From: Thermanaeromonas sp.
GTDB lineage: Bacteria > Bacillota > DSM-521 > Neomoorellales > Neomoorellaceae
DNA length: 64,000 nucleotides
Direction of reading: 5' to 3'
Assembly (NCBI RefSeq): GCF_021890735.1
Contig: NZ_JAKKUR010000002.1
Coordinates: forward strand, 1 to 64,000
Positions within the stretch are counted from its first letter, which is position 1. Each line of letters opens with the position of its first letter. Of this stretch, positions 13,285 through 23,455 are shown in pieces. Position numbers and translations under genes: made by a program. The notes below the pieces were generated by a model. The model saw only the letters and a list, made by a program, of their open reading frames with translations. It did not search any database and was not told where the DNA came from.

Positions 13285-14361
13285 CTAGGCCTGGATCACC
13301 CGGTAACCCGCAGCCTTACGCAGCCTGTTCATGATGGCCAAGCCCAGCCCTTGTTCCGGAAAGGCTTCTACAAGTATAACTTCCGCCTGCTGCCGGTCAC
13401 AATTCCTCAGGGCAGCAAAAAGGCGGGCCGCTACCTGCGTAAGATCCTGTCTGCTTCCTAAAACCTCTAAATAGTCCGGCCGCGGCTCTTTAAGATAGTT
13501 GCTGGCTGTTTCTACCGTGGCCAGCACTGCCACCCGCAAACCCTTTTTCTTAAAGGCTTCCACCATCTCGCGAATACGCCGTACCATACGCGAAAGCTCA
13601 CCGGCCACAAGGTACACCTCACCCTCCGGAGCGTAATGGGTGTACTTCATACCCGGAGCCTTGGGCCGTTCCGCGCCATCCCCGAGGACTGCAGGATCCA
13701 CCGCCACTTCTCCCAAGATTTCCTCAAGTTGTTCTTTGGTGATACCGCCCGGCCGCAAAATGGTAGGTACGGGCGAGGTTAAATCCAAAACAGTCGACTC
13801 TACTCCCACAACCGCCGGACCGCCGTCAACTACAGCATCTATCTTCCCGCGCAGGTCCCGCAATACGTGGTGTCCGGTGGTCGGACTCGGCCGCCCGGAA
13901 AGGTTGGCGCTGGGCGCCGCCACAGGTAGCCTTGCCGCTTTGATCAAGGCCAGGGCCACCGGGTGAGCCGGCATGCGTACAGCTACCGTATCCAGCCCGG
14001 CCGTCACCTCGGGCGGTACCACCTTGCTCTTGGGCAAAACCAAGGTGAGCGGCCCCGGCCAAAACCGCTGTATGAGGGTCAAAGCCTTGGGAGGAAGCTC
14101 ACTAATAAGGGAGCGCAACATGGGGAGGCTTGCTACGTGGACTATTAAGGGGTTGTCCTGGGGCCTGCCCTTGGCCCAAAATATACGTTTGACGGCCCGG
14201 CTGTCCAAGGCATTGGCTCCCAGGCCGTAAACCGTCTCCGTGGGAAAAGCGACTACTCCCCCGCGCTGCAAAATTCGTGCCGCAAGCCTTATCTTATGTA
14301 TTTCGGGTACGCGCGGGTCTATCTTTATATATTTAGTTCTCTTTCTCTTAAACGTAGGCAC
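13285..14361 (-). CDS. ywlC: Threonylcarbamoyl-AMP synthase (Sua5/YwlC)
   Basis: Makes threonylcarbamoyl-AMP from threonine, bicarbonate and ATP for the t6A37 modification of tRNAs reading ANN codons. The YrdC-like domain spans about residues 20-235 (GGVVAFPTETVYGLGANA, KGRPQDNPLIVHV, PVAAPSANLSGRPSPT). A C-terminal Sua5 domain follows (about 250-355). The start is taken as GTG 14361, with AGAGGTGA upstream; a GTG three codons earlier abuts that SD sequence. It follows prmC after a few bases. Confidence 0.93.
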   Translation of the reverse strand: MPTFKRKRTKYIKIDPRVPEIHKIRLAARILQRGGVVAFPTETVYGLGANALDSRAVKRIFWAKGRPQDNPLIVHVASLPMLRSLISELPPKALTLIQRFWPGPLTLVLPKSKVVPPEVTAGLDTVAVRMPAHPVALALIKAARLPVAAPSANLSGRPSPTTGHHVLRDLRGKIDAVVDGGPAVVGVESTVLDLTSPVPTILRPGGITKEQLEEILGEVAVDPAVLGDGAERPKAPGMKYTHYAPEGEVYLVAGELSRMVRRIREMVEAFKKKGLRVAVLATVETASNYLKEPRPDYLEVLGSRQDLTQVAARLFAALRNCDRQQAEVILVEAFPEQGLGLAIMNRLRKAAGYRVIQA

Positions 14362-14372
14362 CCGTTTCACCT

Positions 14373-22410: not shown

Positions 22411-22800
22411 TTATATCCACCGGCCATCCAGGAGCCCTAGGTCGGCCGCAATTTCGGCCAAAGTCCGGTCTAACTGTTTCATGGCCTGCTGGACCAAGGG
22501 CCGCGGCCCCATGAAACCCGCTTCCAATCCCATGTCCTCGCAGAAAAAGGTGAAGAGCTCTGCGCCCAGCCTATCCCACCGGGGAAAAGGCCAGCAATGC
22601 CGGGCCCCGCAAATTATGCAGTTAAACTGAACCCCAAACCCCTTCCCCTTCTGCCTCTCTATATCTAAAAGCACGCACCCGCAAGGGCACCGGATCTGGA
22701 AGTTACCCCGCCCTAGGGTAAAGAGGGAAAAATTATAAACTTCGAGACTACCGCACCCCGGGCAGTAAAGAGCGCAAGCTACCTCGGTAAAGATGACCAT
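22411..22800 (-). CDS. Uncharacterised Cys-rich zinc-ribbon-like protein
   Basis: I do not recognise a family. The 129-residue protein has three cysteine pairs: CPGC (14-17), CPCGC (about 38-42) and CIICG (about 61-65, followed by ARHC). This suggests one or two zinc ribbons, and GRGNFQIRCPCGCVL resembles a knuckle. The C-terminal half is helical (PLVQQAMKQLDRTLAEIAADLGLL). ATG with GGGAAGGG upstream is the start. It sits between spo0F and fba in the same direction. A nucleic-acid-binding or metal-sensing role is possible but unsupported. Confidence 0.7.
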   Translation of the reverse strand: MVIFTEVACALYCPGCGSLEVYNFSLFTLGRGNFQIRCPCGCVLLDIERQKGKGFGVQFNCIICGARHCWPFPRWDRLGAELFTFFCEDMGLEAGFMGPRPLVQQAMKQLDRTLAEIAADLGLLDGRWI

Positions 22801-22869: not shown

Positions 22870-22903
22870 TGAAAAATAAAGGCCCGGTTTAAAGACCGGG
22901 CCC
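22870..22903 (-). terminator. Terminator downstream of spo0F
   Basis: GGCCCGG and CCGGGCC (22881-22902) form a hairpin with a short loop. On the minus strand it is followed by TTTATTTTTC. It directly follows the spo0F stop codon. Confidence 0.9.
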
Positions 22904-22909
22904 GTCTAT

Positions 22910-23308
22910 TCATCCCGTTACAATTTCCAGCTGTGAATAGCACGACTGGGCTAAAGCCGCATCCACCAGGTGATAAAGGTGGGAGAGATCGAAGGGCTTG
23001 TGCAGGAAATACCGCACGCCCAGCTTGCGCGCTTGCTCCGCTAGTTCCTTGTCTTCGTAGGCCGTCACCACAATTACAGGTAGAGAGCATGCCCTCCTAT
23101 GTAGCTCGCGTAAAAACTCCACTCCGCTCATCCCCGGCATTTTCATATCCAGTATGGCCAGGCTGGGCTTCTCCGCTATTATCTTCTGTAGTCCTTCTTC
23201 CCCGCTTGCCGCCTGGCAAACCCGGAAGCCCGCCTGACTCAGGGCTTCCAACAACAGGCGCCTTACACCCGGCTGGTCATCTACGATAAGTATAGAATTT
23301 TTGCGCAG
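22910..23308 (-). CDS. spo0F: Spo0F-type sporulation response regulator, apparent CTG start
   Basis: Single-domain receiver that passes phosphate through the sporulation phosphorelay. The first ordinary start codon (TTG 23254) would remove beta-strand 1 and the acidic pocket. The frame is open upstream to a TGA at 23318. The codons from CTG 23308 encode RKNSILIVDDQPGVRRL, with GGGAGGTGA six nt before the CTG. With this start the key residues are Asp10, Asp11, Asp54, Thr82 and Lys104, exactly the B. subtilis Spo0F numbering. An ATT three codons earlier is a less well spaced alternative. The protein is 132 residues, with a short C-terminal extension. Neighbours fba and pyrG match the Bacillus order. 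Confidence 0.85.
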   Translation of the reverse strand: MRKNSILIVDDQPGVRRLLLEALSQAGFRVCQAASGEEGLQKIIAEKPSLAILDMKMPGMSGVEFLRELHRRACSLPVIVVTAYEDKELAEQARKLGVRYFLHKPFDLSHLYHLVDAALAQSCYSQLEIVTG

Positions 23309-23455
23309 GCCAATTCACCTCCCATCCCCTACCAAACTCGTCAGTTAGGCTCCGCTAGCTCATTTGGTAAAGGGGAATAGGGAATCCGCTCCTCTAAAAA
23401 TACAATATATTCGCTAAAAGGCCAAGGAATTCCTGCTCCCTTTATCACCGGGCCT

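Follow-up and report, generated by a model that had tools for sequence, protein, structure and literature searches.

Start codons beyond AUG, GUG and UUG are known in bacteria; infC and pcnB have rare AUU starts, and that of infC serves the feedback of IF3 on its own mRNA. The spo0F gene of Bacillus subtilis starts with ATG. It is reported to be transcribed by sigma-H (reference in PMC5289222), high Spo0F is described as blocking KinA in this organism (PMC5289222), and genes for fba, CTP synthase and transaldolase have been published as markers of the spo0F neighbourhood (PMC6136694). Engineered reporters with non-AUG starts, CUG among them, are reported to have reached 40-100% of the AUG activity under one 5' UTR and 5-20% under another in two Clostridium species, and the same article gives 0.1-0.3% (or 0.04-3%) for non-AUG reporters in E. 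coli (PMC9680021).

Here we describe a locus from Thermanaeromonas sp. that is very probably a true spo0F gene with translation starting at CUG. It lies in a window of 64,000 nucleotides (contig NZ_JAKKUR010000002.1, positions 1 to 64,000), and its features are collected in Table 1. Its product is, like B. subtilis Spo0F, a single receiver domain that aligns over residues 4-115 without offset and has the acidic pocket and catalytic residues, and the gene likewise has fba, CTP synthase and transaldolase family neighbours and a sigma-H-like promoter. It is unlike the B. subtilis gene in its putative CTG start and in the conserved 17-nt ribosome-binding block that precedes it. With infC and pcnB the locus shares a conserved start outside ATG, GTG and TTG behind a strong Shine-Dalgarno sequence; it differs from infC, with its feedback function, in that the codon is CTG and the gene encodes a signalling protein. 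The engineered Clostridium reporters also start at CUG, with an efficiency that depends on the 5' UTR, whereas the present locus is a natural, family-conserved case from another lineage (compare PMC9680021).

Table 1. Features of the spo0F locus, with positions in the window.
Feature	Position	Strand	Basis or remark
spo0F coding sequence, CTG to TGA	22910..23308	-	132 aa, single receiver domain; 132 codons plus stop; PF00072 match and alignment to solved Spo0F
Putative CTG start codon (spo0F codon 1)	23306..23308	-	conserved in 13/17 family orthologues
spo0F stop TGA	22912-22910	-	end of frame
17-nt ribosome-binding block GGAGGTGAATTGGCCTG (family form GGAGGTGAGCTGGTCTG)	23306..23322	-	conserved among CTG genomes
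In-frame TGA within the Shine-Dalgarno sequence, closing the frame upstream	23315..23317	-	all 13 CTG genomes
First ordinary in-frame start, TTG (codon 19), past the acidic pocket	23252..23254	-	sequence reading
GACCAGC, codons 11-13, potential pairing arm for GCUGGUC in the family block	23272..23278	-	window's own 5' arm diverged
Sigma-H-like promoter GCAGGAATT-N12-AGCGAATAT	23407..23436	-	similar element in relatives
Intrinsic-terminator-like hairpin directly after spo0F	22880..22903	-	sequence

The initial annotation had described this CTG as lying 6 nt after a Shine-Dalgarno sequence and 18 codons before the first ordinary start, and the sequence is as described: the codon stands 6 nt after GGGAGGTGA (23323-23315) and 9 nt after GGAGG, and the first in-frame ATG, GTG or TTG is the TTG at 23254, 18 codons downstream. 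The frame cannot begin further upstream because the three codons that precede the CTG are TGA (23317-23315), ATT and GGC. Read from the CTG, the product matches the PF00072 receiver model from the model's first position, residues 6-115 of 132 covering profile positions 1-110 of 111, with nothing else above the cut-off; it is thus a stand-alone receiver domain, as in Spo0F. Residues 4-115 align with residues 4-115 of the solved Spo0F chains 2jvj, 1pey and 1fsp with no offset, which bears out the earlier claim that the residue numbers equal those of B. subtilis Spo0F, and D10, D11, D54, T82 and K104 are in register with that protein and invariant in the 13 genomes that carry CTG.

One spo0F orthologue each was recovered from 17 of the 18 genomes of the family (E <= 1e-24), the 18th (G002) holding only a 39% match that was left out. 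The aligned start codon is CTG in 13 of these 17, in each case with TGA three codons upstream, and the CTG in the window is therefore not a chance occurrence; among the 13 is the congener of the window (G001), whose Spo0F is 89% identical. In all of them the CTG sits behind GGAGGTGA and the in-frame TGA and is preceded by no ordinary start. In the window, G001 and G017 no ordinary start occurs between the upstream stop and codon 18 or 19, past D10 and D11. In the other ten CTG genomes the first is codon 7, an ATG in nine of them and a TTG in the tenth. This codon lies within beta-strand 1, 27 nt away from GGAGG, and a start at it would retain D10 and D11; in these ten a start at CTG is likely rather than forced. 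The earlier proposal of a full-length Spo0F read from CTG is thus well supported by conservation of the codon in three genera and by a near-invariant ribosome-binding site.

The four orthologues without CTG differ from one another. G013 has ATG at aligned codon 2 and an N-terminus, MSKKIMVIDDQ, that is the same as the CTG relatives would make; in G004 codon 1 is CTT and an ATG follows at codon 3; G003 carries a GTG four codons before the aligned start; and in G016 the aligned codon is CGT, GTG and ATG fall inside beta-strand 1, and the aligned region contains a stop. In this last, small-genome relative the sequence GTG GGC GAA AAA AAG TGA lies in another frame behind the Shine-Dalgarno sequence (L130:2938-3027), and its A-AAA-AAG resembles a -1 frameshift site; decay, assembly error and recoding would each account for this state.

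The conservation of the ribosome-binding block itself is an odd feature. Twelve of the 13 CTG genomes carry an identical 17-nt GGAGGTGAGCTGGTCTG, from which the window differs at 3 of the 17 positions; the Spo0F proteins of these twelve are only 54-89% identical to that of the window, yet all 17 letters are common to them. The Shine-Dalgarno sequence, at functional distance, is conserved together with the codon. Conservation of a Shine-Dalgarno sequence is to be expected, but that of the spacer GCTGGT is less so. Among 22 genomes of the order, 13 contain the pattern GGAGGTGARYTGGYCTG once each, every match lying at spo0F, and its reversed control has no match. A shorter form, GGAGGTGAGCTGGTC, which misses the window, is found in 14 of the 22 and adds the spo0F of G004 and a single site in G013 that falls within another gene in the opposite orientation. 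In G004, 16 of the 17 letters of the block are kept although the start has apparently moved to an ATG two codons later; the ATGs of G004 and G013 stand 15 and 16 nt downstream of GGAGG, a large distance for an efficient site, as though the block predated both of them. When the best mean distance of ribosome-binding sites was compared, spo0F gave 0.00 and ten control genes 3.90-7.64, an imperfect comparison in which control starts were set mechanically and one further gene was skipped for having too few rows. Elsewhere in the window, the gene at 13285-14370 (minus strand) has a ribosome-binding stretch, TAGAGGTGAA, that is visibly conserved across the family and was missed by the control-gene scan.

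A wider survey covered 82 loci (80 minus one that runs off its contig, plus three of the order). In 80 of them an ordinary start precedes the acidic pair by 5 codons or more, and the two exceptions are Moorella-type loci carrying the spo0F block; under a looser limit none of the 82 lacks an ordinary start. Given the identity of the exceptions, the CTG start looks like a trait specific to the family, and the CTG state would be ancestral to at least three of its genera. A survey of 36 groups of closely related genomes is reported to have found a switch to CUG in 2 of 61,358 ancestral AUG starts (PMC5622118), and because such switches are so rare the retention of a CUG start in three genera is unusual. 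This rarity also weighs against a start at CTG, as do the four orthologues that lack the codon and the drift of the window's own block. Searches of open-licence PMC papers showed no published CUG start for spo0F. General use of CUG near spo0F was not supported by a scan of 773,222 bases on both strands, where 15 CTG sites passed the Shine-Dalgarno and reading-frame filter, compared with 10 when the distance was displaced as a control, and 13 of the 15 were spo0F itself.

Of the alternatives, a start at an ordinary codon fares best, though it is improbable: the TTG at 23254 (or the codon-7 ATG in Moorella), with the upstream in-frame region left untranslated, is what a standard gene caller gives. 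As had been claimed, however, the product from this TTG would lack beta-strand 1, D10 and D11 in the window, and the strong conserved Shine-Dalgarno sequence is located at the CTG. Between the window and G001 five of codons 5-18 differ, all synonymously, which argues that this stretch is translated and speaks against a start downstream of it; the N-terminus that G013 makes from its ATG points the same way.

A sequencing or assembly error, or a frameshift, is more doubtful still. It would make use of the out-of-frame TTG at 23313-23311 (MACAK...), which lies near the Shine-Dalgarno sequence and which one extra A, if a base were missing or skipped in the A-run, would join to the spo0F frame. In the congener and another 11 genomes this TTG is replaced by CTG (GAGCTGG), and the length from the Shine-Dalgarno sequence to D10 is equal in all of them, with no indel; an identical error common to independent assemblies is not credible, and this explanation was therefore rejected. 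Equally improbable is a pseudogene or functionless remnant. The G016 copy, with its internal stop, would fit such a fate, but in the genome of the window and 12 others the frame is intact and the catalytic residues are invariant, synonymous changes dominate, and a promoter and terminator are present. The initial annotation had proposed a search of relatives for a conserved CTG or ATT; the former was found and the latter was not. Although some bacterial genes, such as infC, do start at the rare codon ATT, a start at the ATT of 23314-23312, two codons before the CTG, is rejected as very unlikely on spacing (only 3 nt from GGAGG) and conservation (the 12 relatives that carry the block, the congener included, have GCT).

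Two further candidates were set aside. A short reading frame within the block (GTG AGC TGG TCT...) is conserved for four codons only and its ends differ, as judged by eye without a statistic. A relaxed initiator tRNA would be another route to CUG, but all seven loci examined have the usual anticodon arm, GGG-CTCATAA-CCC, and no special tRNA therefore explains the codon. One initiator tRNA-Met (L166:1471-1546) has T as its first base, so that U1 would pair with A72, and several relatives look alike; the initiator tRNA-Met of E. coli has a C1-A72 mismatch.

Under the preferred reading, translation from CUG, the strong Shine-Dalgarno sequence GGAGGUGA, whose GGAGG is a normal 9 nt away, would place the initiator tRNA on the CUG, and initiation, presumably with fMet, would yield a 132-residue Spo0F with a complete first beta-strand and acidic pocket. 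The sigma-H-like promoter would drive the gene as a transcription unit of its own, and the product would work in the Spo0 phosphorelay. The Shine-Dalgarno sequence is very strong, and a strong one can carry CUG initiation. In the Clostridium reporters the efficiency of CUG varies with the 5' UTR (PMC9680021), and for this reason the codon need not make Spo0F scarce, the outcome depending on the leader. Given the block of KinA by high Spo0F in B. subtilis, the idea, put forward in the initial annotation, of a weak start that keeps Spo0F scarce is nevertheless not an absurd hypothesis.

We also considered whether the block might be a dedicated translational control element, with a spacer, invariant in three genera, that pairs with codons 11-13, and a CUG kept because its C closes the helix. 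The spacer GCUGGUC is complementary to GACCAGC at these codons, the first base of the CTG being the last base of the helix, and the RNAalifold consensus includes this 7-bp helix. All 13 genomes have GAC as codon 11, whereas of 75 invariant Asp positions in seven neighbouring genes 2 are encoded by a single codon throughout, and codons 11-17 show low synonymous variation (mean percentile 0.22, with 22 of 1352 control windows as low); early pyrG is lower still. G004 keeps the block and the C at the helix end, though its start has apparently moved to ATG. Against this, the arms show no covariation (no pair changed on both sides, and four of the seven pairs never vary), a complement of equal length arises in about 46% of synonymous resamplings for each of three genomes, and the window itself breaks two of the seven pairs. 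For these three reasons the hairpin is a weak hypothesis, and we offer the control element only tentatively, as rather unlikely. Single-sequence folds show the helix in only part of the genomes, and the window sequence folds less stably than most of its shuffled versions (z 1.46, 190/200). A leader hairpin upstream of the Shine-Dalgarno sequence (23322-23402, minus strand; -33.8 kcal/mol) is not significant (z -1.29, 14 of 200 shuffles), and an Rfam search returned nothing above gathering scores. The leaders of relatives align poorly at this hairpin. If the block were such an element, Spo0F synthesis would be tied to RNA folding, to a trans-acting partner or to the state of an initiation factor.

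The surroundings of the gene fit a real phosphorelay. Gene order is pyrG-femAB-alr-spo0F-ORF129-fba-fsa, so that all three published neighbourhood markers are present, and the promoter in Table 1 was assigned by the sigma-H consensus. In this genome a Spo0B-like gene (PF14689) lies between obgE and rpmA/rplU (the L27 and L21 genes), and Spo0A is also encoded (TIGR02875, 394.5 bits), as would be expected alongside a Spo0F orthologue. An older view, as given in PMC3533761, holds that Spo0F-like proteins of clostridia without Spo0B serve other functions; in contrast to those clostridia, a Spo0B candidate is present here. Between spo0F and fba lies ORF129 (22411-22800, minus strand), a cysteine-rich protein of 129 aa with no Pfam or NCBIfam match, which occurs in all 16 family regions examined at 31-78% identity and is a conserved, uncharacterised neighbour of spo0F.

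Bacterial regulatory genes rarely have a natural, conserved CUG start, and this one would belong to the receiver of a phosphorelay, a system in which, for B. subtilis, the ratio of Spo0F to kinase is reported to matter through the block of KinA by high Spo0F (PMC5289222). If the CUG is translated as proposed, ordinary annotation strips Spo0F of its catalytic pocket in some genomes of the family, and the locus would offer a ready natural test of non-AUG initiation as a means of control in clostridia.
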